In this document: positions 7,170 through 45,743 of the stretch, in pieces
Layout of the letters: each line of letters begins with the position of its first letter
How positions within the stretch are numbered: position 1 is the first letter of the stretch
Virus record (IMG/VR): IMGVR_UViG_3300032462_000014
Coordinates: 1-46,422 of that record
Length of the DNA stretch: 46,422 nt
Strand: one strand, 5' to 3'
Source of the DNA: a virus
Made by a program: the position numbers and the translations under genes
Notes under the pieces: generated by a model
What the model was told of the DNA's origin: nothing
Databases searched by the model: none
Seen by the model: the letters and a program-made list of their open reading frames with translations, nothing else

Positions 7170-7201
7170 TAAATATAACATCCTTTCCCCGGGAGGCCAA
7201 A
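7170..7201 (-). promoter_or_regulatory. Early-type promoter P1 (TTTGG-19-TATATTTA)
   Basis: On the coding strand TTTGG (7201-7197) is followed by exactly 19 nt and TATATTTA (7177-7170). The flanks CTGTTTGGC and GGATGT just before the -10 box recur in the other copies. The layout matches the Bacteroidetes housekeeping promoter (TTTG, then TAnnTTTG). It serves the 87-aa gene. Confidence 0.75.
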
Positions 7202-7217
7202 CAGGGGGGGAAATTTG

Positions 7218-8570
7218 TTATATATCCTTTAATATTGATTCGGCTGAGTAAATACCTTGGCTCCCACTAACCGTAATACCCCTAGCAGATAAAGCATCAC
7301 CAACGAAATGAATATTAGGATATTTAGTTAAGGATAAATCTTTATAGCTGACCAAAGGTTCAGGAGAAAGATATTTGACCTCTGGCATGTATATCCCATA
7401 GTCATTCCCTAAGGTTGGGAATACTTCTTTCATATCTTCTATAAATCCCTCAATGTAAAGGGCATAGTCTCCTAAAGCATCATATAAAGGCTGGATTGAA
7501 TTAACCACATTACATTTTAAATATTCCCCTTCTGAATTTTTGGAAGGTTGGCGGTTGTTGTTGGGGGAATAAAATGAACCCATTCCTTTATTTTGGAGAG
7601 TTTTTACAGCAGTTCTGGAATACTCAAAGGGGTTTTCTATGTTTTGAATTTCCATCAATATCCCAAAATTAGTCATATTATTACGATGAGCTTCATCTTT
7701 TTTGGCATGTCCATTATAAGAATGATCCCCGTATGTTTCTTCTATGGCTATATAAGCTGCGTTGTTGTTCGTACAAAAAGTTCTTAACGAAACTCCTTTA
7801 TCTTCAAATTTTCTATATAATTTGAAATCATAACTAATATCAATTAACTTTTGGAAATGATGTTGAGGTGCCTCAAAACGGATCCCTATTTGTACTGATT
7901 TAGGTTCAGTTGGTAGGTCGTATTTTTCTGCTAATTTTTTTCCAAAGTCTATGCCGGATTTACCTACACCAAATATAAGTGTATCGTATTTTAATATCAC
8001 ATTATTGGCCCATTTCATACCTTCGGGTAAGCTCTCACTATCCATTTTTGCTGTTTTAGGATAATATACTTTATTATTTTCAAAATCAATATCCGTTACT
8101 TTAGTCTCCCATTCAAAGTGGACACCTTTTCCAACTAAATAATCATACCAGTTCTTTGCAATTTCAGATAAGTAATCTGTCCCTATATGCCAAACAGGAA
8201 ATAACCTTAAACCAAAATAAGGTTTAATGAAATCAGGTTCTGTTTCTGGGTTTGAACAATGGACTTCTTTAGGGTTAGGGTGGAATCGTTTGAAATTATT
8301 TATCACCTGATCCATCAATTCCATTGCTTTTTCTTCACCACAATATTTAGATAGTTGACCTCCTATTGAAGTATGATAAGTTAATTTACCATCACTCCAA
8401 CCTCCAGCTCCTAACATACCTTCCATTACCTCACTAGGTAACCTATCATATGGGCCTTTACCCATATCTATTATGGTTATTAGTTCCCCCGGGTAACCAT
8501 TATCTATTAATTTAGTGGCAGCATTGATTCCTGAGACTCCGGCTCCTACAATTACTATTTTTTTATCCAT
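7218..8570 (-). CDS. FAD-dependent oxidoreductase/dehydrogenase (COG2509-like)
   Basis: A 450-aa protein with an N-terminal Rossmann FAD motif IVIVGAGVSGINAA (GxGxxG, residues 9-14) and a C-terminal FAD signature NIHFVGDALSARGITVSGSQ, both typical of the uncharacterised FAD-dependent dehydrogenases grouped as COG2509. Between them are LGAGGWSDGKLTYHT and a second nucleotide-contact segment, YDTLIFGVGKSGIDFGKKLA. The full length fits an intact enzyme. It is unusual in a phage. The reaction is unknown, with a reductase acting on a host metabolite or tRNA/cofactor precursor possible. It lies alone between small unknown genes with a heptamer repeat in its leader and has no early or late motif. 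Confidence 0.85.
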   Translation of the reverse strand: MDKKIVIVGAGVSGINAATKLIDNGYPGELITIIDMGKGPYDRLPSEVMEGMLGAGGWSDGKLTYHTSIGGQLSKYCGEEKAMELMDQVINNFKRFHPNPKEVHCSNPETEPDFIKPYFGLRLFPVWHIGTDYLSEIAKNWYDYLVGKGVHFEWETKVTDIDFENNKVYYPKTAKMDSESLPEGMKWANNVILKYDTLIFGVGKSGIDFGKKLAEKYDLPTEPKSVQIGIRFEAPQHHFQKLIDISYDFKLYRKFEDKGVSLRTFCTNNNAAYIAIEETYGDHSYNGHAKKDEAHRNNMTNFGILMEIQNIENPFEYSRTAVKTLQNKGMGSFYSPNNNRQPSKNSEGEYLKCNVVNSIQPLYDALGDYALYIEGFIEDMKEVFPTLGNDYGIYMPEVKYLSPEPLVSYKDLSLTKYPNIHFVGDALSARGITVSGSQGIYSAESILKDI

Positions 8571-8594
8571 TATTTATTATTTATTATTTATTAA
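8571..8594 (-). repeat. Heptanucleotide tandem repeat in leader
   Basis: Three units of TATTTAT on the plus strand directly abut the ATG of the FAD enzyme gene. On the coding strand this gives AATAAATAATAAATAATA. No other promoter-like motif is seen between this gene and its upstream neighbour, so the repeat may be the AT-rich translation leader. Confidence 0.6.
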
Positions 8595-8632
8595 TATACG
8601 AAAAAAAAATGTGGTCTCCAAATTCTGATTTT

Positions 8633-9551: not shown

Positions 9552-10649
9552 TTATTTCATTATTTCTTTATAGGTCAATTCTATCTTATTTCCTGATAAA
9601 TCTCCTTTAGGGTACACCTGCTTTTTAGGAACTACTGTAGCTCTTAAACCTCCAGTAATATTCCTTGTAGAATCATGTCTTATATTTAATAATGGTTCCA
9701 AATCATACTCTTCTATATCTACCATATTTTCTAACACTTTGGAAACCTCAACATATATTGTATCTCCTTTTAGGGTGAAATCTTGAGGTGAATAGGTTTT
9801 ATATATAACTACAGAATTATCTGACCCGAATATTATTAATTCTTCTTCAGATTCAGGTAAATCCAATACTATTACTCCTGAAACTTTGCTTTTTGTTTCT
9901 TTATTATACATAGTATATATTCCTTTCTTTTTATTCCCTAACTTATCTAGGAAAGGTTTGAAAGTTAATTGTGGGGCAAATCCTCCATTTTGGATTTTGG
10001 TGAATAATGCATTTACTAATTCTCTATATCTAGAGTCTGAACTTTCCCAGAAACCTGCATTGTCTTTTTTTATTGATATAGGATAATCTTTTTTACCTTT
10101 TAATATTATATCTGCTTTTTTACCTCCTTGAGTATCATAACCCACACTTTCTACTTTATTGATATTTTTAACAGTATAAGTTTTATTTTCCCCTTTAAAT
10201 TTTATAGTTTTAGGACCATCCTCTAAATATTTATTTAATTCATCTACTATGATGTCTTCATTTCCTGTACCCGCAGAAGATCTGCCTTGAGAGTTATCAG
10301 GTTTAACTACAAAAGTAACGGTTTTATATTTTATGGCTCCTGTTGAAGATCCTGGGGCGTTAGGGTCAAAGTTAAAATCTTTTAATTTAGAGATTTTTTC
10401 AATATAATCAAACCTTTCGGTTCTGGGAACTAATATTTTATATTTCTTAGAAGAAATTTTAGCGAAATTTTCATCCCCAAACCCAATTTTTGATTTTAGA
10501 ATTTGTATAGCATTATACATATCATCTTCTTTTAACATACCTTCTATTAATGAATTAAATAAGTTAATGTCTTCAGGGGATGAGGGGTCTAAATATCCTT
10601 TGGGGAATTTATAACCGTACTTTCGTATTAGTTTTTCTATTATTTCCAT
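9552..10649 (-). CDS. Hypothetical protein with PD-(D/E)XK-like nuclease signature
   Basis: A 365-aa protein. Near residues 175-200 it has GGKKADIILKGKKDYPISIKK, an Asp followed after a beta-hairpin by a S-I-K-K strand, the arrangement of the D...(D/E)xK metal site of restriction-like nucleases. FWESSDSRYRELVNALF follows. N-terminal to it is GNEDIIVDELNKYL, which could supply the upstream acidic residue. I do not know a characterised member. An endonuclease in virions or near the capsid genes would be unexpected. It overlaps its upstream gene by 1 nt and is clearly in one operon with it. The nuclease call is motif-based only. Confidence 0.7.
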   Translation of the reverse strand: MEIIEKLIRKYGYKFPKGYLDPSSPEDINLFNSLIEGMLKEDDMYNAIQILKSKIGFGDENFAKISSKKYKILVPRTERFDYIEKISKLKDFNFDPNAPGSSTGAIKYKTVTFVVKPDNSQGRSSAGTGNEDIIVDELNKYLEDGPKTIKFKGENKTYTVKNINKVESVGYDTQGGKKADIILKGKKDYPISIKKDNAGFWESSDSRYRELVNALFTKIQNGGFAPQLTFKPFLDKLGNKKKGIYTMYNKETKSKVSGVIVLDLPESEEELIIFGSDNSVVIYKTYSPQDFTLKGDTIYVEVSKVLENMVDIEEYDLEPLLNIRHDSTRNITGGLRATVVPKKQVYPKGDLSGNKIELTYKEIMK

Positions 10650-11488
10650 TAAAACCGCATTCCATCAATAATATTTTCTATTTGATCTTTTAGATCTTCC
10701 ATATAAGAAATTATATCTGATTTTTGATCTCCAGCCAAAGCATAGGCGCCTCTTCTGGCGTTTTTGATTTCGTAATCTAACTTAGCTACGGAAGATGTAA
10801 AACCCAATAATCCCAAATCTTCAAAATATTCTTCTTTCCAACCATCATTTGAATATGATTCCTCTTCAAAGTTATCATCAGGTCCTTGTCCTTTATAGAC
10901 TTCTAATATTAGTTTTTTTAGTTTAGATTTTTTCATTTTTGTTTCTTGTATTTCTTCGGGTTCAATATCAAAGTTATCATCAGGTCCTTGTCCCTTATAG
11001 ACTTCTAATATTAGTTTTTTTAGTTTAGATTTTTTCATTTTTGTTTCTTGTATTTCTTCGGGTTCAATATCATCGATTTCTACATCTTCTGTTTCTTCAG
11101 GTTCATCTAAAGGTTCAGTTTCTTCTTTTGCCCCATATCTTAATATTCGGGAGATGGCTTCTACCGCTCTATGCTCCTCTGGTAGATTTAATAAATAATA
11201 TTTTTTACCTTCTATTTGAGCTATCCAACTTCTACCATTATATACTAAGTAAAAACTTTGATCGTTTTTTAGATTAATTCTAAATGTAGTAGGTTTTGGA
11301 GAAACCCAGTCTATAGAATCTAGAAAGCTATTAAAATCTAAAGATAACAAATCTACAATTATCTTTTTTAATTCTGGGAATTTAGTTATTTCATCATATT
11401 CTATAGAACTGTCATCTACCTTTTTTATATCTTTTAAGATAGTAGGGATTATAGATTTGACTTTAGATTTTAATTCTTCCTTGTTCAT
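10649..11488 (-). CDS. Hypothetical protein with 34-aa tandem duplication
   Basis: A 279-aa acidic protein. Residues 1-120 form a compact-looking domain (FRINLKNDQSFYLVYNGRSW, IEGKKYYLLNLPEEHRA). This is followed by a glutamate-rich linker, then two copies of a 34-aa unit with IEPEEIQETKMKKSKLKKL and a GQGPDDNF tail. The unit contains the same KKSxLKxLIxE peptide found at the N-termini of several neighbouring proteins. The final 70 residues are helical. Unknown function; location suggests a head-associated or packaged protein. Confidence 0.75.
   Translation of the reverse strand: MNKEELKSKVKSIIPTILKDIKKVDDSSIEYDEITKFPELKKIIVDLLSLDFNSFLDSIDWVSPKPTTFRINLKNDQSFYLVYNGRSWIAQIEGKKYYLLNLPEEHRAVEAISRILRYGAKEETEPLDEPEETEDVEIDDIEPEEIQETKMKKSKLKKLILEVYKGQGPDDNFDIEPEEIQETKMKKSKLKKLILEVYKGQGPDDNFEEESYSNDGWKEEYFEDLGLLGFTSSVAKLDYEIKNARRGAYALAGDQKSDIISYMEDLKDQIENIIDGMRF
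10868..11071 (-). repeat. 102-bp in-frame tandem duplication
   Basis: Copies at 10868-10969 and 10970-11071 differ, by eye, at one position (GTCCTTT/GTCCCTT). The period is 34 codons, so the frame is preserved. Confidence 0.92.
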
Positions 11489-11873: not shown

Positions 11874-12452
11874 TTATTTTATTATTCCTGCTATTACTTG
11901 CATTCTTCTTTTGAAGTCAGATTCTTGCAGTCTTTCGGATTCGGTGATTTCTCTATTTCTTCTCCTTTCCCTCTCTTTAGCAAAGTCTTCATTTGGATAT
12001 TCTGTATTTATAAAGGGGGTTGATTTATTTAATTCATTATCATAAGGGGTATCATCTATATTCAAATTGTCTCTAGGAGATCCTACTTCTTTTACAACAT
12101 GCTGTCTGGTGAAAAAGGTTAATGAGTTACCTATTTGTTTAGTTAACTTGTCATCTCCTAATTGCCTAGCTCCTTCTAAAGCGGCTTCTAGATTGTTTTG
12201 TATATCACCTGATATTCCAGAAAGTTCTGTTTCCGCATCTTGGTATATGTGCATTTTGTCACCCCCTCCTTCTAAATCGTAAAAATTCTCTAAATCTTCG
12301 ATTTCTTCATCATCCTTGATTTCTTCATCTTCAACTTCTTCTTCCTCTTCCTCTTTATCCTTTTTCTTAGTTTCCATAAGTTTAGAATAAAAAGCTTCCT
12401 TAAGGTATGGGGGTTTAACTGGTAATTTTTTTACTGTTTTTTTCATTTTCAA
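11874..12452 (-). CDS. Acidic hypothetical protein
   Basis: A 192-aa protein with a basic N-terminus (MKMKKTVKKLPVKPP), a very acidic run rich in E and D at residues 30-60, and a basic arginine-rich C-terminal helix (AKERERRRNREITESER, then FKRRMQVIAGIIK). No family recognised. The charge layout and location beside KKSxLKxLI proteins suggest a core or head-internal protein. A late-type motif is immediately upstream. Confidence 0.7.
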   Translation of the reverse strand: MKMKKTVKKLPVKPPYLKEAFYSKLMETKKKDKEEEEEEVEDEEIKDDEEIEDLENFYDLEGGGDKMHIYQDAETELSGISGDIQNNLEAALEGARQLGDDKLTKQIGNSLTFFTRQHVVKEVGSPRDNLNIDDTPYDNELNKSTPFINTEYPNEDFAKERERRRNREITESERLQESDFKRRMQVIAGIIK

Positions 12453-12457
12453 TTTCG

Positions 12458-12473
12458 TTTATTATAAATATTA
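12458..12473 (-). promoter_or_regulatory. Late-promoter-type motif
   Basis: The coding strand reads TAATATTTATAATAAA, ending about 5 nt upstream of the CGAAATTGAAA leader of the acidic 192-aa gene. Confidence 0.55.
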
Positions 12474-13340: not shown

Positions 13341-15556
13341 TATAATCCTAATTCTTTTAATTCCTTAATAGTTTGGGTCGTTGATTTAAATAATATACCA
13401 ATACCCCCGGCCTTATTCCAATTTATTATGGTTTCCTCCCTATCATCGATTAATATATCATTGGAGGTTAATTTAGGTTTTATTAAATGTTTTTCCTTAG
13501 CAGGTTTCATATTCATTTTAGGTTTTGAAGGGAAAAGACCTTTGTTAACCCATATATCTAACCAAGCTTTTTTACCTTCTACTGATTGTTCTTTGATAGA
13601 AGGAGCAGTAAGAAGTTCATAATTATATTTAGATACAAACTTAATTAATTTTTTAGCTTCAGGCAGGGGAGGAATTCCTTTCCAGAACACCATTTTATTA
13701 GGACCTTCATCTATAAAATCCCAAAAAGCTTTAACCCCAAATTCATCTCTATAATCCCCAGGACTTATACCTTGAGATAATTCAGTAAATCTTCCATCAA
13801 AATCTGCTATTACCCCATCCATATCAACATATATCATAGGGTTATCCAATTTAAAAGATTCAAATAAAGGCAAAGATAAAGATTTAGATCTAGTTCTCCA
13901 TTTGGAAAGTATTTTATCCTTTTGCAAAGAAGTGAGTTCTTGGTCTTCTAGATAAGCATCAATAACATCCTTCATTGGTTTTTTTGATTTTTTAGCTTGA
14001 GTATACATCCCATATAACATAGCATCTATCTCTGTAGGTAAAGTGAAATATTTCCAATATGGATTTTTTCCTGTTTCTATTTTATCTCTAAGATCATTGT
14101 CTTTGTCTAAGTCAAAATCTTTGGATGGGGTTTTATTAAGACCATCCTGAGTAAGATGTTCTATTTCATGTCTAAGTATGTCAGAGACTGCATAGGATAC
14201 TTTTTCCCATATTTGGGGGAAATCTTCTTTGGGGACTTTAAAAATAAGTTGGATTTTGGCAGGTTTTGAAGCAAATGATCCACCTTCATCATAAAATTCA
14301 TATGATTTAGTATTTAGGGATGCTTCTAGATTGAATTTTAACCCTGATTCTTCAACTTTAAATTTTAGTTTAGAAAGTTGATTACCTTCTTCAACATCAT
14401 ACTTCCAACCTTTAATTACCTGGTTAGTAAGTTTGGTTACTAGACTATCATATTTACCTTCCTTTAAGTTTATTACTTCGTGGAAAAAAGATATTGCTTT
14501 TTCATTCAAACCAAATATGTCTTTTGATTCCTTTACATCCCAATTCTTATTAACGGTTTCTAAATCTCCTTTTTCCGTTTGAGATAACAGTTCATCATAG
14601 GAAATAGATTCATTTAAACTATCAGTCCAATTTCTAAAATTCATATTTCCATTTAAATATGCTTCTTTTTCTAATTCCACTAAACCCTCATCTTCGTTAG
14701 TGTTGGTTGTTTGTATATTACCTAATCGGTTTTCTAAATCTTGCAAATAATGAATAATCTCATGGGAATAAGATCTAATTAAATCTTTAGGATGTCTTCC
14801 TTCAGTATATAAAACTATAGTTTGATTTGTAGGATCATAATAAGCAGTTTTTCCAAAGAAATCTTTTGCGTTTTTTACATCTCCATGTTTGAATATAACT
14901 TTAGGGAGGGTTTTGATTTCTGGATGTTTATTTAAGAACCATTTAGTGAGGGATTTTATTTGGGATTTATAGTCTATCTCTTTAGAGTAAGTAGCATCCT
15001 CGTTTAGTTCCTCTAGGGTTTTGTTATCTAGAATATTAAATATTTCTTCCTTTTCATTCTCAGATAATTCGCTAGGTAAATATTTTGAAAATTCTTCAAT
15101 ACCTTGTTTTAATGCCTTTCTAGCATTTGATCCGCTCATACTTCCATCTGGGGTTGATATTATCTTGAGAACCATATTAGGGTATTTTGAATCTATATTT
15201 TTGGTTCTCTGTTTAATATCCAATTCGTCATCTTCCCTACCCTCTCTACTCCCTATAACAAAATATATTAGGCCTTGGGGGTTGTTTTTTGCTAGTCTTA
15301 ATATTTCCCCTATAGGGGCATGGGCGGGGATAAGTTTTACTTTAGAAGGGAGATATTTTAAATATATTTCCCATATTTTTATAGATAATTCTTGAGATAT
15401 ACCACCCCTTTCTCCACCCCCAACATAAATTATAAACTCACCAACGTTTGGGAGTGCTTCTAATGCTTTTTTAACTACAGAAAGATGGCCTGCGGTTGGA
15501 GGTTTGAAGGACCCTCCAAAAACTGCTGTAGGGTTCTTTTGAGTTGGTGAAGTCAT
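13340..15556 (-). CDS. Four-part fusion: nucleotidyltransferase, two HExxH metallopeptidase-like regions, HAD phosphatase
   Basis: A 738-aa protein joining several modules. Residues 10-150: cytidylyltransferase-like fold with GGSFKPPTAGH (H24) and the closing SGSNARKAL motif, as in NMN/PPAT-type enzymes. Residues 215-300: zinc-peptidase-like HEIIH (265-269) with a later Glu-rich LVELEKEAY. Residues 355-525: a second HEIEH (463-467), with PTEIDAMLYG providing a likely third ligand. Residues 573-738: HAD hydrolase with IYVDMDGVIADFDG (D578, D580) and a C-terminal DILIDDREETI (motif IV). The modules are linked in one intact frame. It follows a kinase gene with ATGA overlap. The order suggests nucleotide end-processing combined with protein processing, but substrates are unknown. 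Confidence 0.85.
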   Translation of the reverse strand: MTSPTQKNPTAVFGGSFKPPTAGHLSVVKKALEALPNVGEFIIYVGGGERGGISQELSIKIWEIYLKYLPSKVKLIPAHAPIGEILRLAKNNPQGLIYFVIGSREGREDDELDIKQRTKNIDSKYPNMVLKIISTPDGSMSGSNARKALKQGIEEFSKYLPSELSENEKEEIFNILDNKTLEELNEDATYSKEIDYKSQIKSLTKWFLNKHPEIKTLPKVIFKHGDVKNAKDFFGKTAYYDPTNQTIVLYTEGRHPKDLIRSYSHEIIHYLQDLENRLGNIQTTNTNEDEGLVELEKEAYLNGNMNFRNWTDSLNESISYDELLSQTEKGDLETVNKNWDVKESKDIFGLNEKAISFFHEVINLKEGKYDSLVTKLTNQVIKGWKYDVEEGNQLSKLKFKVEESGLKFNLEASLNTKSYEFYDEGGSFASKPAKIQLIFKVPKEDFPQIWEKVSYAVSDILRHEIEHLTQDGLNKTPSKDFDLDKDNDLRDKIETGKNPYWKYFTLPTEIDAMLYGMYTQAKKSKKPMKDVIDAYLEDQELTSLQKDKILSKWRTRSKSLSLPLFESFKLDNPMIYVDMDGVIADFDGRFTELSQGISPGDYRDEFGVKAFWDFIDEGPNKMVFWKGIPPLPEAKKLIKFVSKYNYELLTAPSIKEQSVEGKKAWLDIWVNKGLFPSKPKMNMKPAKEKHLIKPKLTSNDILIDDREETIINWNKAGGIGILFKSTTQTIKELKELGL

Positions 15557-16350
15557 TTTAAAAATTGGTTTATTTTAGATTGGGCTTCTTCTTTTGATAC
15601 GGAAGAAGCAATTATATTTTGAGTTTTGTCTGATTGAAGAAATGATTGGAGATCTTTATTCAGTTTTTCTTTATTCTTTTCGTCTCTTAACTTTTCTTTA
15701 TCTGTTTTATCCCTCCCATCTCGGGGAATGAAGGGGTATATATAATTTTTTAAAATATCTTCTACAGACTTCATAGTTTCTTTTTTTCCTAAATTGGAAA
15801 CAGACACAAAATTGGAGAATGATTTTTTATATATAGGAAAGTTTTCTGAAACTTTTAACCATGTTTGGAGGATTGAGGAGGGAACTAAACTCCTATCTTT
15901 TCCTTTACTTTTTTCAAATCGATTTTGGTTTCTCTTTAGGGATGTTTCTAGGTCTGTATAGACATATAACATCATAACATCATATCCGGATTCTTGAAGT
16001 TTATTTTTTAATTCTAATGTTGGTTCTGATGATGAAGAGGTTCCGTCTAATATGAAAGACTCCTTGTTTGCTATTATTTTAGGCAATTGTTCTTGTTTGA
16101 GTTTTTTTGAAGCATTTTGCATGGCTTTCATAAATTTACTCCTATCTTTAGCACTGGTATCTTTTTGATTGAGTGAAAAATTTTCTATTTTGGATAAAGC
16201 TAAAATATTATCATCAACATTTAGTATAGTTAATCCTTTTAAATCCAAATCTTGTAAAATAGAACCTTTTCCTGAACCTGGAGCCCCCGCAAGAATGAGG
16301 GCTTTAGGATTGGAAAGGGATTCTTTTAAAAGCTGAATTAACGATATCAT
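15553..16350 (-). CDS. P-loop kinase (AAA_33/zeta-toxin-like)
   Basis: A 265-aa protein with the P-loop AGAPGSGKGS (K28), a DGTSSSSEPTLELKNKL region corresponding to the Walker B and acceptor side, and YVYTDLETSLKRNQNR, the lid arginine segment usual in AAA_33 kinases. The C-terminal 50 residues are lysine-rich and probably disordered. Its stop overlaps the start of the fusion protein (ATGA), so the two are co-translated. It could phosphorylate a nucleotide, an RNA end or a small molecule used by the fused phosphatase/transferase; this is inference. Confidence 0.82.
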   Translation of the reverse strand: MISLIQLLKESLSNPKALILAGAPGSGKGSILQDLDLKGLTILNVDDNILALSKIENFSLNQKDTSAKDRSKFMKAMQNASKKLKQEQLPKIIANKESFILDGTSSSSEPTLELKNKLQESGYDVMMLYVYTDLETSLKRNQNRFEKSKGKDRSLVPSSILQTWLKVSENFPIYKKSFSNFVSVSNLGKKETMKSVEDILKNYIYPFIPRDGRDKTDKEKLRDEKNKEKLNKDLQSFLQSDKTQNIIASSVSKEEAQSKINQFLK

Positions 16351-16363
16351 TGTTTATGGTTTT

Positions 16364-16377
16364 TGTTATAAATATAT
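16364..16377 (-). promoter_or_regulatory. Late-promoter-type motif
   Basis: The coding strand reads ATATATTTATAACAAAAA, upstream of the P-loop kinase gene at 16350. Confidence 0.5.
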
Positions 16378-16402: not shown

Positions 16403-17173
16403 TCAAGTAATCCTTTTAGCTGAAGTTTTGGAGCTGTTAGTAATAGGTTTTGGGTTTGGGTTTTCAAGGTCAAATAATTTCTTTACAGTTAAATAAATAT
16501 CAAAATTTTCTTCTTGTGATCTAGAAGATTCATACATTTCCCAACCTTTTCCTTGCATTTTACCTACCGAAGCCTTTCTTTTGTTAGAGTTTAACCATAA
16601 CACTCCTGATCTTTTGGGTTTTATACCATAACATTCCTCATAACATTGGCTGTAGGCTGAAGTTTGTAGATCATATGTTATTTGAAGGTGGTTTGAGGTT
16701 TTATAATCTATAATCCATAATTCATGATCTATTTCACATACCATATCGCAAGTTCCTGCTATTTTATATTTATCTGAAAATAAATGTACTTCTGTTTCTA
16801 TTAAAGTAGGTTTATATAATTCCCACCATTCAACAAACCTTATAAACATATTCCAGGAATCTATAGGATATTTTAACTCATCATTTTTTAATAAGGTTAA
16901 TTCTTCCCCATCCAAATATTTTTCTATCATCTCATGAACCTGGGTTCCTCTTTTTCCTGCTTCCTTTACTATATGATTAGCTGAATATCCTACTTTTTTT
17001 AACCAATCTTCAAAATATATTCCCTTTGGATAGTATGATAATATATGAGTAATACTAGGATAATATAAACCATTTCGTCTATAAAACCTTGAATCAGGCA
17101 TGGTTATTTGTTTAGAATCTGGGGAGATTTCTAATACCCTATTATAGGATTTTTTTATTAATTTACTTTTCAT
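16403..17173 (-). CDS. RecB/Cas4-like PD-(D/E)XK exonuclease
   Basis: A 256-aa nuclease. Motifs in order: RGTQVHEMIEKYL (His of the RecB-like first motif, about 75-88), AGTCDMVCEIDHELWIIDYKT (D and DxK catalytic site), and DLQTSAYSQCYEECYG, the QxxxY closing motif of PDDEXK_1/AddB-type enzymes. Such nucleases act in DNA end processing and recombination. The start overlaps the primase gene by 4 nt, giving a primase-nuclease pair driven from the early promoter at 18.13-18.16 kb. The C-terminus is short and basic. Confidence 0.85.
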   Translation of the reverse strand: MKSKLIKKSYNRVLEISPDSKQITMPDSRFYRRNGLYYPSITHILSYYPKGIYFEDWLKKVGYSANHIVKEAGKRGTQVHEMIEKYLDGEELTLLKNDELKYPIDSWNMFIRFVEWWELYKPTLIETEVHLFSDKYKIAGTCDMVCEIDHELWIIDYKTSNHLQITYDLQTSAYSQCYEECYGIKPKRSGVLWLNSNKRKASVGKMQGKGWEMYESSRSQEENFDIYLTVKKLFDLENPNPKPITNSSKTSAKRIT

Positions 17174-18120
17174 AGTATTTGTATCTGTCTTTTTAATAAC
17201 CCTGACATAGATAATGGGGGAGTTTTTTGTATTATATGGGTAAAATGACGAAAACCTAACTTAGATGGGTCTTTTTCATTTATGTCTACTATATATACTT
17301 CTTTACCCATTTTCATAAAATATTCAGCATGTACTAGACAATGTTTTAAAGCATCTTTATCTAGAGCCAAATATATTTGTTTTACATCAGAAGTAATTAT
17401 TTTTTTTATTAAGGAATCTTGGATTTTATTACTTAACAAAGGGATAGCATTTCTCTTAATAGCCATAGCATCAAAAAATCCTTCACATAATATTATAGGT
17501 AAATCCCAATTTATAAACAAATCGAAAGCTATAATATCTCTGGAAATCTTAGGGTTAAGATAAGGGAGAAATTTATTATTCATAAAGGATCTACCAGTAA
17601 AATAATTAAGTTCTCCTAGGGAGTTATATGAAGGGATAATTATTCTATTAGCATATTCCCCATATTCACAATATCCTATATTATGTTTATCAATATCCTC
17701 CTGAGTTATATTTCTTTCTTTTAGATAATTGAAAGCATGCCTCATTATTAAATCCCTAGGGGTTTTGAAATTTTTAAATTCTTTAGGGAGAGATAAAGAA
17801 TATTCTACCATATCCGGTAGAGAGGAATATAGGTTTGGTGATGATTTGGATGTTAGGTTTTTAAGCTCTAGCCTTAATTTCTTTTCTACTTTTAAGGATT
17901 TGAATAGATTTTCAATTTTAGTCCCTTTAAACCCATGTTTTAGAGAACCACATACCCAACAACTATATTGTCCTGTAGTAATATTTACTTCTAATTTATT
18001 CTTTATAGGATGGCAAAAGTTAGGACATTTAAATGAATAATTCCCTCCATTTTTCTTATATCCTGGACCTAATACTCTAGTTAATAAATTTAAAACAAGT
18101 TCTTCATTCATATAAGACAT
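17170..18120 (-). CDS. DNA primase (DnaG-like)
   Basis: A 316-aa protein with an N-terminal CHC2-like zinc site: C32, C36/H37, C54, C57 in FKCPNFCHP and YSCWVCGS. The central region has NIGYCEYGEYANRIIIPSYN, as in the DnaG core, and a TOPRIM fold: PIILCEGFFDAMAIKRNA (catalytic Glu) and IYLALDKDALKHC (DxD). It makes primers for lagging-strand synthesis. It is shorter than bacterial DnaG and has no helicase-interaction domain. It has a near-perfect early-type promoter 9 nt upstream of its ATG and is followed by the nuclease, both inserted within a structural-gene run. Confidence 0.9.
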   Translation of the reverse strand: MSYMNEELVLNLLTRVLGPGYKKNGGNYSFKCPNFCHPIKNKLEVNITTGQYSCWVCGSLKHGFKGTKIENLFKSLKVEKKLRLELKNLTSKSSPNLYSSLPDMVEYSLSLPKEFKNFKTPRDLIMRHAFNYLKERNITQEDIDKHNIGYCEYGEYANRIIIPSYNSLGELNYFTGRSFMNNKFLPYLNPKISRDIIAFDLFINWDLPIILCEGFFDAMAIKRNAIPLLSNKIQDSLIKKIITSDVKQIYLALDKDALKHCLVHAEYFMKMGKEVYIVDINEKDPSKLGFRHFTHIIQKTPPLSMSGLLKRQIQIL

Positions 18121-18128: not shown

Positions 18129-18160
18129 AAAATATAACATCAAAATTTAGGGAAAACAAA
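18129..18160 (-). promoter_or_regulatory. Early-type promoter P2 before primase
   Basis: Coding strand TTTGT (18160-18156), 19 nt, TATATTTT (18136-18129), with GATGT before the -10 box as in the other copies. It lies exactly between the GIY-YIG stop and the primase start. Confidence 0.7.
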
Positions 18161-20575: not shown

Positions 20576-21259
20576 TTATGAAACTGTTTGGGTTGTGATT
20601 TTAGATATAGTAATTGGGATTTGAAGTCTAGCCCCACTATCTCTACCTATTACAGTTAAAGTACTATATAAAGAAGTGTCACTCCCAAATAAACTATTAA
20701 CCCCAGTAGCTATAAGAGTTAAAGAAGTTCCTATAACAGCTCTAGAAATATTAGTTCCTATGGTTGATGAAGATTGGATTTGAGAATTATCCGTGGCTTT
20801 TCTTCCTATATTAACTCCTGTTCCTGTGATAGTGCTAAATAATCTAGCGTCTCCTACTATAAATTGATATCCTGAAGATTCATGAGTTGAATTATTTCCT
20901 AAATATGAAAGTGTTTGAGGTGTAATAGTTTTTTCTGAAGTTTGGAGCATAGTAATATTACCCTGACCAATAGATAAAGTAGGCATTTTTGAAGTCCCTC
21001 TAGGTAAAGTAGTAAGTTTATACTTCATTATCTGATTCTCATCGGGGAATGCTTCCAATAAAGGCATATTTTCTATGGCTTCTCCATAATATGCTGATCC
21101 TGAGGGATGTGTAGGGTTGAATAGAGTATAGTCTATTTCATCATCTGATAATGCGAATTGAGTAATTTTAAAAGTTCCATCACCTCTAGCCAGAAGTTCT
21201 CTTCCTTTTTTTGTTAATATCGCGTCTACAGTTATGAGTTGATTGTTAAGATAGCCCAT
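20576..21259 (-). CDS. Virion structural protein, conserved in marine T4-like phages
   Basis: A 227-aa protein. The N-terminus MGYLNNQLITVDAILTKKGR continues into GDGTFKITQFALSDDEIDY, a combination often seen in structural proteins of marine T4-like phages next to the large fibre or LamG gene. The rest is beta-rich with no catalytic motif. It has a late-type motif 23-36 nt upstream and starts the block of three small tail proteins. Confidence 0.8.
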   Translation of the reverse strand: MGYLNNQLITVDAILTKKGRELLARGDGTFKITQFALSDDEIDYTLFNPTHPSGSAYYGEAIENMPLLEAFPDENQIMKYKLTTLPRGTSKMPTLSIGQGNITMLQTSEKTITPQTLSYLGNNSTHESSGYQFIVGDARLFSTITGTGVNIGRKATDNSQIQSSSTIGTNISRAVIGTSLTLIATGVNSLFGSDTSLYSTLTVIGRDSGARLQIPITISKITTQTVS

Positions 21260-21281: not shown

Positions 21282-21295
21282 TTTATTATAAATAT
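21282..21295 (-). promoter_or_regulatory. Late-promoter-type motif
   Basis: The coding strand reads GCATATTTATAATAAAT upstream of the 227-aa structural gene. Confidence 0.55.
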
Positions 21296-31615: not shown

Positions 31616-31630
31616 TTGTTATAAATATTA
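31616..31630 (-). promoter_or_regulatory. Late-promoter-type motif abutting a start codon
   Basis: The coding strand reads TTAATATTTATAACAA directly followed by ATG; read as a promoter it leaves almost no leader. Confidence 0.5.
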
Positions 31631-34667: not shown

Positions 34668-35006
34668 TTACTTGGATGGGGGGGAAAGTTTCTCTAATTC
34701 CTCCATTAACTGTTCTTTTTCTTCTTCAGATAATGAGAAATCAGATTCTGAAGATGCATTTTGGAATGCTTTTTGTATTATCCCTGCCATTTTAAGGAGG
34801 GCATCATCATTTTTTACCCCTATATCCATATAATCTTTTATTAAGGGGACTAGGAGGGTAGCATCTCCTATGTCTTGCATAAGGGGTTTTAGTTGGTTGA
34901 TTAAGGTAGTAACTTGGGATTGTCTAGCTTTTTGGTTATTGTAGATTTCCTCTAATAAACCCCCAAAGGTTTTATTTTTAAATAATTTTTTTCCTAATAT
35001 ATCCAT
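34668..35006 (-). CDS. Small helical protein of the baseplate operon
   Basis: A 112-aa protein, mostly helical (LLEEIYNNQKARQSQVTTLI) with an acidic C-terminus (SLSEEEKEQLMEELEKL). No family recognised. It begins the baseplate operon, with a late-type motif 16-29 nt upstream, and ends 1 nt before the hub gene. It may be an assembly factor. Confidence 0.72.
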   Translation of the reverse strand: MDILGKKLFKNKTFGGLLEEIYNNQKARQSQVTTLINQLKPLMQDIGDATLLVPLIKDYMDIGVKNDDALLKMAGIIQKAFQNASSESDFSLSEEEKEQLMEELEKLSPPSK

Positions 35007-35021: not shown

Positions 35022-35035
35022 GTTTATAAATATAT
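35022..35035 (-). promoter_or_regulatory. Late-promoter-type motif before baseplate operon
   Basis: The coding strand reads TATATATTTATAAACAAAA upstream of the 112-aa gene and hence of the hub, gp25 and gp6 genes. Confidence 0.55.
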
Positions 35036-35042: not shown

Positions 35043-36008
35043 TTAAAGGAAATAATCATTCTCCCTATAGAACTCATATTTTTCTTTAAATAGGGTATGG
35101 AGTTTTTTAGCTATTTTAGTAATTTTAGGGGCGGGAACATCTATTTTTTCCCTAATATTAATATATAATGCTTTTTTATTAAAAATATCTATGTTATGTC
35201 TAAACCTAAACAGATCTAAAATTGCGTCTGCTATAATAGCTTCTTCTAATTTAGGAAATATGGTATATATTTTTTTAGTACAATATAAAATATATTCATC
35301 TATAAAAACTGATAGGAGATCATTTTCTACATATTCTGAAGTGAGGGTAGGAGAAAGGTAATGATTTTCATTAAAATTCATTGTTTTTTCTTCTATTTCT
35401 TTAACTAAATCTTCAGTAACTAAGGAATCATCATCCGAGGAATTATTGATTGTGTTAAAAGATATGTTTTTTATTTTTGAAGCATAATTTTGTTTATTAT
35501 ATGCTATCAACCATCTTTTTATTATAGTCCCAAAATAAGAATAAGCTTTGGGGGGTGTTAGTTTCTGTAATTCTATGAAACATTCAGGGGATACTGTGAG
35601 ATCAATAATAAAAACATCAATATCCTCTTGGGAAATTATATCTCTATCCCCTATAAAAGAACAAAAATCCCCAGAATAGGATTCATTAAATTTTTTGGTG
35701 ATGGTTTTTAGGATACGATCTTGGATATTCTGTTTATGACTATATAAGTGAATCTTAGTAAGAAGAACTGTTATTATCTCATGTTGCAGGTCTTCTAAAT
35801 TACTTACTTTAGTGTTATAGAATTTAAAGGTATGGATTATATTTTCTGTAAGCTTGAAAAAAGGATAGTGTATGCTTTCCTGATATATTTTACTTTTCTT
35901 AGCTTTACTCTTGGTGTTATTATAATCTATAATAGCCCTTTCTGTAGCTTCTGTAAAATATCTTCTTTTTTGTTTCTTACTTTTTTCTTGTCTTATTATA
36001 TAATCCAT
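35043..36008 (-). CDS. 55: Late-transcription sigma factor (T4 gp55-like)
   Basis: A 321-aa protein. The opening YFTEATERAIIDYNNTKSKA is the region 1/2 start typical of gp55-type phage sigma factors in marine T4-like phages (YFTEETExAIxxYN). It is followed by IHYPFFKLTENIIHTFKFY and LQHEIITVLLTKIHLYS, matching the sigma region 2 helices, and by KAYSYFGTIIKRWLIAYN, the conserved core/promoter recognition helix. It is longer than T4 gp55 (185 aa), with an extra C-terminal helical part. It would guide host RNA polymerase to late promoters. It precedes the baseplate operon, whose upstream motif is a candidate target. Confidence 0.8.
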   Translation of the reverse strand: MDYIIRQEKSKKQKRRYFTEATERAIIDYNNTKSKAKKSKIYQESIHYPFFKLTENIIHTFKFYNTKVSNLEDLQHEIITVLLTKIHLYSHKQNIQDRILKTITKKFNESYSGDFCSFIGDRDIISQEDIDVFIIDLTVSPECFIELQKLTPPKAYSYFGTIIKRWLIAYNKQNYASKIKNISFNTINNSSDDDSLVTEDLVKEIEEKTMNFNENHYLSPTLTSEYVENDLLSVFIDEYILYCTKKIYTIFPKLEEAIIADAILDLFRFRHNIDIFNKKALYINIREKIDVPAPKITKIAKKLHTLFKEKYEFYRENDYFL

Positions 36009-37353: not shown

Positions 37354-37728
37354 TCAGCGAAGAATTTTTATAATTTTATAAATACTCCCACATTTCTCAT
37401 ATTCCTCCCGCTTTTCAAAATAAGAAAGGATTTGTTCTAGGGACCTTTTGAAAGAAGGTTTTCCGAATTTTTTTAGAGCTAAAATATGATATGGATTAAC
37501 AACTTCAAACCTCTCAATATATTTCAGACATAGGTTATATACTAATATTTCTTTCTGTTCACTATCAAACCCCCCACCTTTAATTTTAACTTTAAGGATG
37601 GTGGGATAGTTTTTTAATAGTTTAATGACTAAATTCATCCAATATATAGGATTATCCTCTATATCCCCAGAAGGGAAATTTTTTAGAGGATCCTCTACAT
37701 AATCCATATTTAGTTTTTCTTTATCCAT
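37354..37728 (-). CDS. Hypothetical protein
   Basis: A 124-aa mostly helical, basic protein (NPIYWMNLVIKLLKNYP; KPSFKRSLEQILSYFEKRE). No family recognised. The late-type motif abuts its ATG, giving nearly no leader; an alternative start at the internal Met8 (MDYVEDPLKN) would leave a normal leader length. Alone between two early-type genes. Confidence 0.65.
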   Translation of the reverse strand: MDKEKLNMDYVEDPLKNFPSGDIEDNPIYWMNLVIKLLKNYPTILKVKIKGGGFDSEQKEILVYNLCLKYIERFEVVNPYHILALKKFGKPSFKRSLEQILSYFEKREEYEKCGSIYKIIKILR

Positions 37729-37741
37729 TTATTATAAATAT
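37729..37741 (-). promoter_or_regulatory. Late-promoter-type motif abutting a start codon
   Basis: The coding strand reads CATATTTATAATAA directly before ATG of the 124-aa gene. Confidence 0.5.
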
Positions 37742-37745: not shown

Positions 37746-38123
37746 TTAAATTTTTCTGTTTTCCTTAAAATATCTCCTCAGATCCCATTTATATTTTTCA
37801 GCTATTGTTTCAGCTTCTATTTCTTGGGGGTGGTCTTCGTAACCATATTCTTCTAAAAGTTCATTATAGACCCACATATCTTGAAGGTAATGAATATATT
37901 CATGAATAACAGTATCACATATATTTATTAAAGACCCTCTAGGATTTATTATCATAGTATTTATAGGTCCATCATATATTCCTTGATAAACACCATACTT
38001 ATCCTTCCCTTTCCTTATCCTAATCTTCAACTCCTCATCAATAAATTCAGACTCCCCAAATTTAATCTTACACCACTTAACCATTAAGGTTATATCTTTT
38101 CTTCCTAACGAGGATTTTCCCAT
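37746..38123 (-). CDS. Putative zinc metallopeptidase (HExxH)
   Basis: A 125-aa protein with NICDTVIHEYIHYLQD (H74, E75, H78) and, 20-25 residues on, HPQEIEAETIAEK, whose Glu is the probable third ligand. The layout resembles short phage SprT-like/WLM-like proteins. Only one domain, so a peptidase or metal-binding adaptor. It has its own early-type promoter at 38.15-38.18 kb. Confidence 0.75.
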   Translation of the reverse strand: MGKSSLGRKDITLMVKWCKIKFGESEFIDEELKIRIRKGKDKYGVYQGIYDGPINTMIINPRGSLINICDTVIHEYIHYLQDMWVYNELLEEYGYEDHPQEIEAETIAEKYKWDLRRYFKENRKI

Positions 38124-38145: not shown

Positions 38146-38177
38146 TAAATATAAGTAAAAAAATTTGAGAGGCCAAA
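38146..38177 (-). promoter_or_regulatory. Early-type promoter P3
   Basis: Coding strand TTTGG (38177-38173), 19 nt, TATATTTA (38153-38146), serving the metallopeptidase gene. It differs from the rest in lacking GATGT before the -10 box. The -10 region TATATTTATAGTAATAA also overlaps a late-like motif. Confidence 0.65.
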
Positions 38178-38844: not shown

Positions 38845-39639
38845 TTAATTTTTAACATAAGACATAGCTAAAGCAAACAAATCAGTATTTACTTTGATGT
38901 CCTGGTTGAAGTTCTTGATTTTTCTTGCTTTCCTGACTTTAGTCCCTGCAATGTATTGGAAATCTCCTTCAATTAATTTTTCTTGAACTATATTAAATAC
39001 CCTCCATAAATCATTTCCCTTATCTTCTTTTCTGACGGGGTCAACTAAATCCATATAGTTAATAGATATTCTCTTAAGATCATCTTTTTTGAATCTTATT
39101 TCAAGAGCTTCTTTAGCAAACTTTACAATTTGGTCTTGGTTCAATTCTGCCTGTTTCATCCTATTCATTGATTCTACAGTTAAGGGAAGATTTTCTACCA
39201 TCTCATGAATCTCTTTTTGTAATTCCTCAAAAGAATATCCCATATGTCTTATTTTTACATCCCCAAACTTTTCAGTAGCTATAACTAAACCATTGGAACA
39301 AATTAACCTAAAAAGCCCGGGGGTGAAAGTGAAAGCATTTTTACCATCATGAGAATTAGTAAGGAGAATTTGAGGGAAAACATCATCCCCATCTTCCCCT
39401 GTTATTACTATATCCTCATTCCTAAAAATAACTAAATGTTTTTGAAACCCAATCCCTACCCTAGATTTAACTTGTTTAACTTCATTCACCCCCCATCCAA
39501 GGGTTTTCATATCATCTATAACTTTTATGGTGGGGATATGAGTATAATGTTTAGACACACCTTCAGATGGTTCCTTTGTAAAGATTGAAGGAGCCATAAT
39601 TAACATTTGGGTTGGAGTAAGAAATTTTTGAGTTTTCAT
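38845..39639 (-). CDS. DUF932-like protein
   Basis: A 264-aa protein with the DUF932 pattern: NSHDGKNAFTFTPGLFRLIC and SNGLVIATEKFGDVKIRHMG at the centre, and an N-terminal IPTIKVIDDMKTLGWGVNEV. The family is widespread in phages and plasmids; its job is not established to my knowledge. The early-type promoter P4 is upstream. Beyond the stop, 47 more sense codons continue in the same frame to 38701. Confidence 0.85.
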   Translation of the reverse strand: MKTQKFLTPTQMLIMAPSIFTKEPSEGVSKHYTHIPTIKVIDDMKTLGWGVNEVKQVKSRVGIGFQKHLVIFRNEDIVITGEDGDDVFPQILLTNSHDGKNAFTFTPGLFRLICSNGLVIATEKFGDVKIRHMGYSFEELQKEIHEMVENLPLTVESMNRMKQAELNQDQIVKFAKEALEIRFKKDDLKRISINYMDLVDPVRKEDKGNDLWRVFNIVQEKLIEGDFQYIAGTKVRKARKIKNFNQDIKVNTDLFALAMSYVKN

Positions 39640-39662: not shown

Positions 39663-39694
39663 TAAATATAACATCCTTATCCGTGATGGCCAAA
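39663..39694 (-). promoter_or_regulatory. Early-type promoter P4
   Basis: Coding strand TTTGG (39694-39690), 19 nt, TATATTTA (39670-39663) with GGATGT before the -10 box; serves the DUF932-like gene. Confidence 0.75.
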
Positions 39695-39717
39695 TTGAGG
39701 TTTACGTTATAAATGGT

Positions 39718-39744
39718 AAAGGACCCCATTTTTTGGGGTCCTTT
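39718..39744 (-). terminator. Strong hairpin terminator, possibly bidirectional
   Basis: AAAGGACCCCA and TGGGGTCCTTT form an 11-bp perfect stem with a loop of five T. It lies 46 nt after the lipoprotein gene stop and before P4. The better T-run is on the plus strand, so for the minus strand the termination signal is weaker; it may insulate two units. Confidence 0.75.
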
Positions 39745-39789
39745 TTTATCTCTTCAATAAATGATGTTTTTTGTTTTGGTTCCCTTATG

Positions 39790-41200: not shown

Positions 41201-41322
41201 TTAGGTTTATGTTTGTCCTTTCTAGAATATTTCTTTTTATTCTTATAAGGTGGGGGAGTCCTTAAAGCATTCCTCCACTCCTCAAGTGTCAATTCTCTAA
41301 TTTTTAAAGTTTTATCTTCCAT
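41197..41322 (-). CDS. Small basic protein
   Basis: A 41-aa gene: MEDKTLKIRELTLEEWRNAL, then a basic, proline-rich tail RTPPPYKNKKKYSRKDKHK. Start and stop overlap the neighbouring genes (11 nt before, 4 nt after), which is the phage pattern and supports it. Unknown function. Confidence 0.65.
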   Translation of the reverse strand: MEDKTLKIRELTLEEWRNALRTPPPYKNKKKYSRKDKHKPK

Positions 41323-41548
41323 AACCTACGGGTTGAAATGGTTTTACTCTCTGAATGAAATCCATCAACATATTATGTTGAAGATGATGTATATGAAAGG
41401 AATTTGATTCTTGATAAAAGAAGGCACATTCCCTCAACCTTCCATAGCTCTTCTGTCTTAAAACTATTATGAGTTCTTCTTTAATAGAATCATAATTTAT
41501 GTATTTTAGACTATATCCAGCTCCTATATCTTCAATCCTATTTACCAT
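41312..41548 (-). CDS. Small hypothetical protein
   Basis: A 78-aa protein (VNRIEDIGAGYSLKYINYDS; FFYQESNSFHIHHLQHNMLM). No family recognised with certainty. The early-type promoter P5 is 18 nt upstream; it heads the operon with the 41-aa, membrane and lipoprotein genes. Confidence 0.7.
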   Translation of the reverse strand: MVNRIEDIGAGYSLKYINYDSIKEELIIVLRQKSYGRLRECAFFYQESNSFHIHHLQHNMLMDFIQRVKPFQPVGYGR

Positions 41549-41565: not shown

Positions 41566-41597
41566 TAAATATAACATCAATTTTTGGGGAAACCAAA
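41566..41597 (-). promoter_or_regulatory. Early-type promoter P5
   Basis: Coding strand TTTGG (41597-41593), 19 nt, TATATTTA (41573-41566), with CCCTG before the -35 box and GATGT before the -10 box; serves the 41.3-kb small gene operon. Confidence 0.75.
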
Positions 41598-41605: not shown

Positions 41606-42532
41606 TTATCCTAACCAAACATCACCAACTTTAGGGAACTCGGTTCTGAGGATTTTCCTGTTAATTTCATATGGGAAAGTATCAAGATAAATAGTAACAT
41701 TTCTCAATTTTTTGAATGACCACCAAGGGGTATTATCAACAATTTTAATAATAGTGACAGTATTAACTTCCTCATTTTTATTTACCCATTCTCCTAGAGG
41801 TGTCAATTTACCTTCATGTATAAGACCAACGGGAGATATTGATTCCATTAATTGAACCCCCATAATGTCTTTATTCCTTAATTTTTCGATTATCCTATCC
41901 CATAAAGCAATAGTTCTAGGATAAAAGTCAGTTTTATCTCCAACCGTTGATGTATTAATTCCACTTTCAATTATAACTAAAGATTGTTCCCATTTAGAAG
42001 TTTCATCAAAATAATCTAATGAAATGTCAGGTTTAGACCAATCTTGGTATACATGGAGGTCAATTCTAGCCTCCTGGCTTATGTTGGCCCTTAAATAATC
42101 ATTCCATCTAGATCTATACTTACCGGATGCTTGGGTATTCCTTACAAACTCACCACAATATATTTCATTATAACCAAATTGGAATTCCTTACTTCTTTTT
42201 ATATAAACTAAGCAATCTTTTTCTGACGTGTTAGGGTCTTTACTTTTTTTAAAGGCATGAAACCCTTCCTCATTCCCATACCTTACCCCTAGTATCTCAA
42301 TCCCAAACCCTTCATATCTCTTAATCTCAGCCAATTCATCTTTTGGGGTTCTAGCTAAACATACAGAATAGATTATAGGTTTTCCTAAAACCGCTAGTTC
42401 TTGTAATTGTTTATCAGTGGCGAAGTTTTTAGGATCTCTAGTCCAAGTCCCACCATTACATAGATATTTGATTAGGGATAAATACCAAGTAGTTATATTT
42501 ATATTTCCTCTTAAAGGGGCATTAACAATCAT
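41606..42532 (-). CDS. TIM-barrel glycoside hydrolase-like protein
   Basis: A 308-aa protein. The pattern of alternating strands and helices with GYNEIYCGEFVRN (Glu after strand 4) and SLVIIESGINTS (Glu at the strand 7 end) resembles clan-A glycoside hydrolases. Other strands are ELAVLGKPIIYSVCLAR, GFGIEILGVRYG and MGVQLMESISPVGLIHEG. No signal peptide. The late-type motif is just upstream. It may act on a surface or intracellular sugar polymer, or be inactive. The fold call rests on a motif pattern only. Confidence 0.5.
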   Translation of the reverse strand: MIVNAPLRGNINITTWYLSLIKYLCNGGTWTRDPKNFATDKQLQELAVLGKPIIYSVCLARTPKDELAEIKRYEGFGIEILGVRYGNEEGFHAFKKSKDPNTSEKDCLVYIKRSKEFQFGYNEIYCGEFVRNTQASGKYRSRWNDYLRANISQEARIDLHVYQDWSKPDISLDYFDETSKWEQSLVIIESGINTSTVGDKTDFYPRTIALWDRIIEKLRNKDIMGVQLMESISPVGLIHEGKLTPLGEWVNKNEEVNTVTIIKIVDNTPWWSFKKLRNVTIYLDTFPYEINRKILRTEFPKVGDVWLG

Positions 42533-42547: not shown

Positions 42548-42562
42548 ATTTATTATAAATAT
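42548..42562 (-). promoter_or_regulatory. Late-promoter-type motif
   Basis: The coding strand reads TCATATTTATAATAAAT upstream of the TIM-barrel-like gene, with a run of A between. Confidence 0.5.
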
Positions 42563-44438: not shown

Positions 44439-44510
44439 TTTTCTAAAAATTTACCGTTCCTCCCTGTATAGTATTTAAAACAAAAGTTGTATTTGTATGA
44501 TTTTTTGTTT

Positions 44511-45560
44511 TCAGTATAATACAATTTTCTCCATCAACATTTGTCTTGCTCGAGTTGAGACTTCCTTCTGAACTTCAGATGGTGTCAAATTAGAGGCCCC
44601 CAAAACATCAATTTCTTCTGTGAATATATCATCTTTTATCCATTTCAAAAACTCACCAGTTTTCTTTATATCTAATTCAGGATTTGATTCCTGAATGGCT
44701 TGATTTACCCTATTAATGGTAACAGAGTAATTAACGAAATCAGCAACAGCCCCCATAACTTCCGGATCAACCTCAGCTAAGGTTTTAACTTTGGAAACAG
44801 AATGTTTTTCACCTTTTACCTTGAATTTGTAAACCCTACCGTTCCATTTACCCGTCCAAACAATCCCTTCCCCTATTCCTTTTACTCCTAATTTTAAGGC
44901 TACAGGACATTGTTCTTCAACCTTATTGATTAACTCAACAAGTTCATTTGTTGCTAACTTAGGATTAACAAAATCAATCTCCATACTATAGACAGGAAAG
45001 TCATAAATTGAAAAGACATTTTGATGTCTATAGGACCATGTTATTGTAGAGTTTAAAATTTCTCTTACATCTACCCACTCATTATCCTCTTTCTCTGAAT
45101 TATGTGCAATTTTAATTCCAAAGATAAAGAAGGATTTTGAAATACTGGAAATTCCTACTCCTTTTTGAATACCTTCACCTGCCCACTCACCATAAACTAT
45201 TAAAGTATCATCCTCTTGAAGTGATAATTTATCATGAATTTCAATCATAAGATCCTTAAAGAATTCCTTGGTCTCCCCTAACAATATAAAAGATGTAAAA
45301 CCAAAATGAGATCCACCATCCCCTTTCTTTATAACACGATTTCTAGTTTGAATTGCAATACCATCTTTAGGAGAATATCTCACGGAAGCATTTGTCCCAT
45401 GTAACTTAACTGTACCTTCAAATAATATTTTTGGAAGGACAGGATTGGGATTGTAAATAATTTCTCCATGTTCATCCTTACCTTCGTAAGATGCATGTTT
45501 ATTGACATTAAAAACTATGTTTCTAAACTGTTCAACCTTTGGGAATTTTATTGTATTCAT
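44511..45560 (-). CDS. RNA ligase, Rnl2-type
   Basis: A 349-aa nucleotidyltransferase. Motif I is FEGTVKLHGTNASVRY (K52), followed by AIQTRNRVIKKGDGGSHFGF (motif Ia/III), LIVYGEWAGEGIQKGVG (motif III), SFFIFGIKI (IIIa), GEGIVWTGKW (motif IV) and VYKFKVKGEKHSVSKVK (motif V). This is the Rnl2 pattern, which seals nicks in double-stranded RNA. The C-terminal 100 residues are helical, as in T4 Rnl2. It lies 72 nt upstream of the Rnl1-type gene, so both ligases are in one region. Confidence 0.92.
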   Translation of the reverse strand: MNTIKFPKVEQFRNIVFNVNKHASYEGKDEHGEIIYNPNPVLPKILFEGTVKLHGTNASVRYSPKDGIAIQTRNRVIKKGDGGSHFGFTSFILLGETKEFFKDLMIEIHDKLSLQEDDTLIVYGEWAGEGIQKGVGISSISKSFFIFGIKIAHNSEKEDNEWVDVREILNSTITWSYRHQNVFSIYDFPVYSMEIDFVNPKLATNELVELINKVEEQCPVALKLGVKGIGEGIVWTGKWNGRVYKFKVKGEKHSVSKVKTLAEVDPEVMGAVADFVNYSVTINRVNQAIQESNPELDIKKTGEFLKWIKDDIFTEEIDVLGASNLTPSEVQKEVSTRARQMLMEKIVLY

Positions 45561-45569
45561 GTTCTTTAA

Positions 45570-45704
45570 TTATTTTTTAAGGTTCTTAGTTTCTTCTTTT
45601 AATTTAACATAGAACTCCTTTGATTTAATTTGGAAATACGTTTCCATATCTTTTCCCCTCCATCTTTCTTTTAGGATGTCTAATACTCTGTTCATGTTTT
45701 TCAT
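45570..45704 (-). CDS. Small basic protein
   Basis: A 44-aa gene: MKNMNRVLDILKERWRGKDM then a lysine-rich helix ending LKEETKNLKK. The early-type promoter P6 ends 8 nt before its ATG, giving a very short leader. It begins a unit leading into the RNA ligases. No family recognised. Confidence 0.65.
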   Translation of the reverse strand: MKNMNRVLDILKERWRGKDMETYFQIKSKEFYVKLKEETKNLKK

Positions 45705-45711
45705 TTATATC

Positions 45712-45743
45712 TAAATATAACATCTCTATCTTGGGGAGCCAAA
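45712..45743 (-). promoter_or_regulatory. Early-type promoter P6 before RNA ligase unit
   Basis: Coding strand TTTGG (45743-45739), 19 nt, TATATTTA (45719-45712), with CCCCTG before the -35 box and GATGT before the -10 box. Confidence 0.75.

Follow-up and report, generated by a model that had tools for sequence, protein, structure and literature searches.

Genomic context of the window

The 46,422-nt stretch of viral DNA analysed here (hereafter referred to as the window) matches a 142,110-bp viral contig exactly over positions 95284-141705, has a GC content of 31%, and carries nearly all of its genes on the minus strand. It contains six putative early promoters, a set of late-type boxes, and a gene for a candidate sigma-family protein (Table 1), with the primase and RNA ligase genes identified by PHROG. 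By its terminase, portal, baseplate, and primase genes, the parent contig groups with T4-like myoviruses, and members of PHROG 223 and 168 (sliding clamp and clamp loader) are also encoded in it. The nearest isolate found was Flavobacterium phage vB_FspM_immuto (Immutovirus; hereafter immuto), with a terminase (TerL) 57% identical. A nucleotide search of phage records with a 25-kb portion of the window returned no match. Immuto resembles the window lineage in gene set, promoter spacing, the TATATTTA element, and the late box, but differs in its -33 element (AGTTGC) and extended -7 element (TTCN). Our literature search found no paper on the promoters of Flavobacterium phages, immuto included.

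Several other features were observed. The proteins encoded at 4485-5402 and 10649-11488 both have direct repeats, dozens of residues in length, within their sequence, and the 450-aa protein of 7218-8570 has an N-terminal motif like that of FAD/NAD-binding oxidoreductases, which is unusual for a phage structural region. Microcystis phage Mel-JY01 (PP395634.1) shares with the Flavobacterium-type phages a terminase (50%), a gp55-like gene, and enrichment of TATATTTA and TATTTATA; its stated host, or a possible host shift, merits verification.

Table 1. Putative promoter sites and the candidate sigma-family gene, in window coordinates
Feature	Position	Strand	Context
Putative early promoter, TTTGG-N19-TATATTTA	7170-7201	-	followed by small gene 6885-7148
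Putative early promoter, weakest (TTTGT/TATATTTT)	18129-18160	-	followed by DNA primase gene 17170-18120, ATG 8 nt away
Putative early promoter overlapping late-type box (TATATTTATA)	38146-38177	-	followed by gene 37746-38123, weak metalloprotease match
Putative early promoter	39663-39694	-	followed by DUF932-like gene 38845-39639
Putative early promoter	41566-41597	-	followed by ORFan 41312-41548
Putative early promoter	45712-45743	-	followed by 44-aa ORF 45570-45704 and RNA ligase gene 44511-45560
Probable gp55-like member of the sigma family; candidate factor for the late promoters	35043-36008	-	Pfam, hhalign, Foldseek
Late-type box	938-951	-	before gene 66-929; 1 mismatch
Late-type box	5424-5437	-	before gene 4485-5402
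Late-type box	6655-6668	-	before gene 6158-6649
Late-type box	12458-12471	-	before gene 11874-12452
Late-type box	16362-16375	-	before gene 15553-16350
Late-type box	21282-21295	-	before gene 20576-21259
Late-type box	31615-31628	-	before gene 31298-31615; next gene gp25-like baseplate wedge
Late-type box	35025-35032	-	before gene 34668-35006
Late-type box	37728-37741	-	before gene 37354-37728
Late-type box	42549-42562	-	before gene 41606-42532

Six sites with a fixed spacer

The initial annotation had described six promoters sharing an identical 19-bp spacer. All six sites are present where stated; they lie on the minus strand, as do nearly all window genes, and the pattern TTTGK-N19-TATATTTW has exactly these 6 matches in the window, compared with 0.13 expected; none of 100 dinucleotide shuffles reached 6, and a reversed-pattern control gave no match in the window. 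A weight matrix built from three other phages only (G002, G006, and G008) recovered 6/6 sites with scores of 12.6 to 45, while the top score in shuffled windows with the full matrix was 1.3. The whole-genome scan that had been proposed was run with such a matrix and detected 26 minus-strand sites in the parent contig (G001), along with one weak plus-strand match. The fixed-spacer class is therefore real, but the six sites are only its in-window fraction, and the main early-promoter cluster of the parent contig lies outside the window.

The conservation beyond the two boxes that had been noticed earlier was also seen, in the form of GTTTGGCYY upstream and of GATGT ahead of the -7 box, the latter in five of the six sites (the exception being 38146-38177). 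A further claim, that four sites have a common flank, needed correction: three sites (7170, 41566, and 45712) carry CTGTTTGG exactly, and the 38146 site reads CAGGTTTGG. The gaps from TATATTTA to the ATG are 7, 17, 23, 22, 8, and 21 nt over the six sites, in minus-strand order. Orthologs of the 7170 site are early in G002 and G008 and an early and late overlap in G006; those of the 39663 site are early too in G002 and immuto, and the immuto primase gene is likewise of the early type. Just before the 39663 promoter, at 39700-39760, lies a strong inverted repeat (GGACCCC/GGGGTCC with T/A runs), which is likely a bidirectional terminator judging from its sequence.

Conservation of the early motif among relatives

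We compared four near-complete genomes of the lineage (G001, the parent contig; G002; G006; and G008), with immuto as the fifth. The motif GTTTGGCYY...GATGT-TATATTTA occurs at 26-40 sites in each of the four, and its spacing is strict: TTTGG-Nn-TATATTT has 19, 24, 32, and 26 matches at n = 19 in G001, G002, G006, and G008, respectively, and 0-2 per genome at the remaining spacings in the range 12-29. A leave-one-genome-out matrix applied to G001 returned the six window sites and 20 others on the same strand. The aligned consensus reads GTTTGGC(T/C)T...GATGTTATATTTA and is followed by an A-rich, C-poor leader. Immuto has the sister form GTTG-N20-TATATTTAGGTATC, for which GTTG-Nn-TAT[AC]TTTA gave 29 matches at n = 20, two at 21, and none elsewhere. 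The spacers themselves vary widely, and both boxes and the distance between them are fixed. The sites are strand-specific and lie 7-23 nt ahead of the ATG with a short A-rich leader; upstream of genes in the five phages, TATATTTA was counted 145 times in the sense and 13 times in the antisense direction. Taken together, these sites very probably represent promoters of a single class, as judged from their sequence and arrangement.

A relative of the window-lineage terminase was found in 13 of 30 motif-bearing contigs, including all those of at least 100 kb, the contigs lacking one being mostly short fragments. We also considered whether TATATTTA is common to Bacteroidota phages and rejected this idea, as four unrelated Bacteroidota phages had no enrichment (0 vs 3).

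A second, late-type class and a gp55-like candidate

A second class of sites is represented by ATATTTATAATAAA. Allowing up to one mismatch, the window has 13 copies of it on its minus strand, and 14 when both strands are counted (1.2 expected). Its TATTTATA box lies upstream of genes 94 times in sense and 16 times in antisense over the five genomes, and no -33 element or upstream conservation was detected over 128 sites. These boxes stand ahead of the sheath, tube, baseplate hub, and head-tail adaptor genes, and in immuto ahead of the terminase, portal, sheath, tube, hub, and tape measure genes. Given that a late box also precedes some non-structural genes, such as ribonucleotide reductase, the early/late division is a strong tendency and not a rule. 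The two classes can also merge: TATATTTATA joins an early -7 box to a late TATTTATA box shifted two bases downstream, and eleven such overlaps were found (the 38146 site and 10 in G001, G002, G006, and immuto), so that one site could serve both phases.

The late box of phage T4 is TATAAATA, and the window-lineage box TATTTATA differs from it while agreeing at 6/8 positions. In both systems an 8-bp box with no upstream element and with A/T-rich DNA downstream precedes structural genes, and a clamp is encoded in both, along with a candidate gp55-like protein in the window lineage. The lack of a conserved upstream element in T4 late promoters has been documented (PMC2988020).

The gp55-like protein is probably a sigma factor, on the evidence of remote sequence and predicted-structure similarity. 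Relatives of ORF 35043-36008 occur in many contigs, and Pfam Sigma70_r2 matched 10 of 31 aligned relatives (best 5e-5; below the curated cut-off in the relatives). In G002, G006, and G007 the sole region-2 match lies inside the relative of this ORF, and across six relatives no other sigma region-2 match and no multisubunit polymerase match were found. With hhalign, the short-form profile gave a remote match to several T4-type gp55s (E = 2.5e-5, probability 75%), whereas the long-form profile against T4 gp55 alone gave nothing. Single-sequence and first profile searches against PDB sequences returned chance matches only, and in Foldseek searches with predicted structures most of the named top matches were sigma factors, none at E ≤ 0.001. 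Compared with T4 gp55, the window-lineage protein is longer and has a helical C-terminal part. It also carries an insert of ~65 residues (about 88-152) after the region-2-like part, which is absent from many relatives, immuto included.

Genes behind the early sites

In the parent contig, the early motif precedes the genes for DNA polymerase, helicase, sliding clamp, clamp loader, primase, and a DUF932-like protein, as well as many small ORFans. Early sites cluster in small-ORFan stretches in each genome, which for the phage of the window lie mostly outside it, and most tiny ORFans of the immuto cluster carry the motif. The class of a gene tends to be kept: G002-G008 reciprocal best hits preserved it for both early (p = 2e-8) and late genes (p = 1e-9), and only 3 early/late swaps were seen among reciprocal best hits in ten genome pairs, which are not mutually independent. 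Among immuto structural genes, by their deposited names, nine are late and one is early (Fisher p = 0.004), the single exception being an overlapping early/late site. On these sequence-based patterns, the sites are likely to be early rather than late. Some sites of the early class may nevertheless belong to a second wave, given that T4 replication genes are of the middle class.

Comparison with host promoters and a model for early transcription

The agreement with the Bacteroidetes housekeeping promoter that had been suggested at first held for part of the motif. Like the sigma-ABfr promoter (TTTG / TAnnTTTG), the phage class has TTTG at -33 (in 6/6 window sites) and a TAnnTTT core at a similar distance; unlike it, the phage class has A and not G at -5, a fixed and not a variable spacer, and the additional GTTTGGCYY and GATGT. 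Of 100 distinct sites, 96% have A at -5, as do 29/29 immuto sites. In F. johnsoniae this position is an almost invariant G (PMC6847099); the promoters behind that figure were picked by the motif, and weaker forms may thus be under-counted. The spacer of Bacteroidota host promoters is of variable length (PMC7366714), and TAHHTTTG upstream of Flavobacteriaceae genes (112 sense vs 59 antisense) showed a spread of 18-23 in spacing. In the five phages the same host-type box was found upstream of genes 7 times in sense vs 26 in antisense, and TTTG-N20-TATATTTA was at chance level in eight host-family genomes (40 vs 46 in the control, over 31.4 Mb). The A-5 and this chance-level layout suggest that the promoter is not simply the host consensus; instead, its general layout is that of the host, but G-5 and the loose spacing are missing.

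We consider it reasonably likely, from the sequence comparisons, that the six sites belong to the early promoters of this lineage, read by the host polymerase before a gp55-like switch to the late boxes. They would form the early promoter class of T4-like myoviruses infecting Flavobacterium-type Bacteroidota, each with GTTTGGCYY at -33 and TATATTTA at -7, separated by a fixed spacer that ends in GATGT. On entry, host RNA polymerase with its primary sigma of the sigma-ABfr type would read these sites, and it is fairly likely, on the same comparisons, that it does so unaided. Transcription is predicted to start 4-7 nt past TATATTTA, giving short leaders; if these began 4-5 nt beyond the -7 box, which is where F. 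johnsoniae transcripts start (PMC6847099), they would be about 3-19 nt long. The fixed spacing and extra conserved bases may turn the sites into strong competitors, as with T4 early promoters, and they would drive small take-over genes and replication genes. Later, the phage gp55-like sigma would redirect the host polymerase to the ATATTTATAATAAA boxes before the structural genes. T4 early promoters are likewise present in dozens per genome before small take-over genes, with conservation beyond the boxes and no phage factor obviously needed. They differ in sigma class and sequence, and in that the replication genes of the window lineage belong to the same class. The extended consensus of T4 early promoters is of the same kind (PMC2988021).

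The same comparisons could also be read as signs of a phage-specific factor, be it an activator, a virion-delivered protein, or a polymerase modification, with the class being middle-like or a private early one; we regard this as possible but unlikely. The replacement of host G-5 by A, the near absence of host-type boxes from the phages, the chance-level layout in host-family genomes, the lack of TATATTTA enrichment in unrelated Bacteroidota phages, and the extension of the motif by GTTTGGCYY and GATGT beyond host promoters all suit such a factor. Against it, the core still matches TAnnTTT plus TTTG, and no second class was found that could be the true immediate-early promoter, most tiny ORFans of the immuto cluster carrying the TATATTTA class. 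T4 middle promoters carry a MotA box at -30, and T4 encodes MotA and AsiA; no match to either protein was found in six relatives, although these searches are uninformative because the control was silent too. In its strict form, the proposal makes TATATTTA the mark of a promoter type private to this phage lineage and closed to host polymerase unless a phage-delivered factor or modification is present, with A-5 and the rigid spacer as the discriminating features. This seems to us doubtful; if true, phage and host promoters would be told apart in infected Flavobacterium cells from the first minutes onwards.

Terminator-like hairpins in the spacers

A hairpin with a T-rich tail was found in the spacers of 8 of 40 sites in G006, 10 of 38 in G008, and 7 of 30 in immuto, in each case above all 100 column shuffles. 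In immuto, for example, AAAGAGTTGCTAGCGCAGCTCTTTTTTCG-TATATTTA shows how termination of one transcript and initiation of the next could be combined in a single stretch. Terminator-like spacer hairpins were noted, for instance, at positions 64498, 67961, and 70242 of the immuto record, and some of the hairpins have UUCG-type loops. The window's own genome does not follow a general rule of terminators within promoters: 1 of its 26 sites has such a hairpin, as in shuffles.

T4-like phages reportedly carry PeSLs, which are composite promoter-terminator cassettes. The hairpin-bearing sites of G006, G008, and immuto resemble these in combining an early promoter with a terminator hairpin, but the combination is not enriched in the window's own genome and the hairpin lies inside the -33/-7 spacer. 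If such cassettes were mobile, their copying could account for the conservation more than selection for polymerase contacts, and it would fit the placement of sites in small-ORFan clusters, often starting within ~20 nt of the preceding stop codon. We consider this improbable, as the window's own genome is at chance and copying alone does not give varied spacers with fixed boxes and spacing; a cassette may, moreover, still be a promoter. An operator or RNA element in place of a promoter is very improbable: the long conserved core and the inverted-repeat character of some spacers would suit one, but the sites combine two host-promoter-type boxes at fixed spacing with strand specificity, a position shortly before the ATG, and a short A-rich leader. 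A chance pattern in AT-rich DNA, for which the low GC content of the window might speak, is refuted by the shuffles and by the repetition of the pattern in five genomes.

Implications for Flavobacterium-type phages

Reading the sites as early promoters used by the host polymerase, together with the late-type boxes, would allow early and late genes to be mapped across whole genomes, in a testable way, for the mostly uncharacterised Flavobacterium-type phages. In this map, the early class would mark those ORFans that are likely to be take-over proteins. The swap of G-5 for A and the rigid spacer raise the question of how the unusual Bacteroidota sigma picks phage promoters, and the early class may offer strong promoter parts for Bacteroidota of this type.
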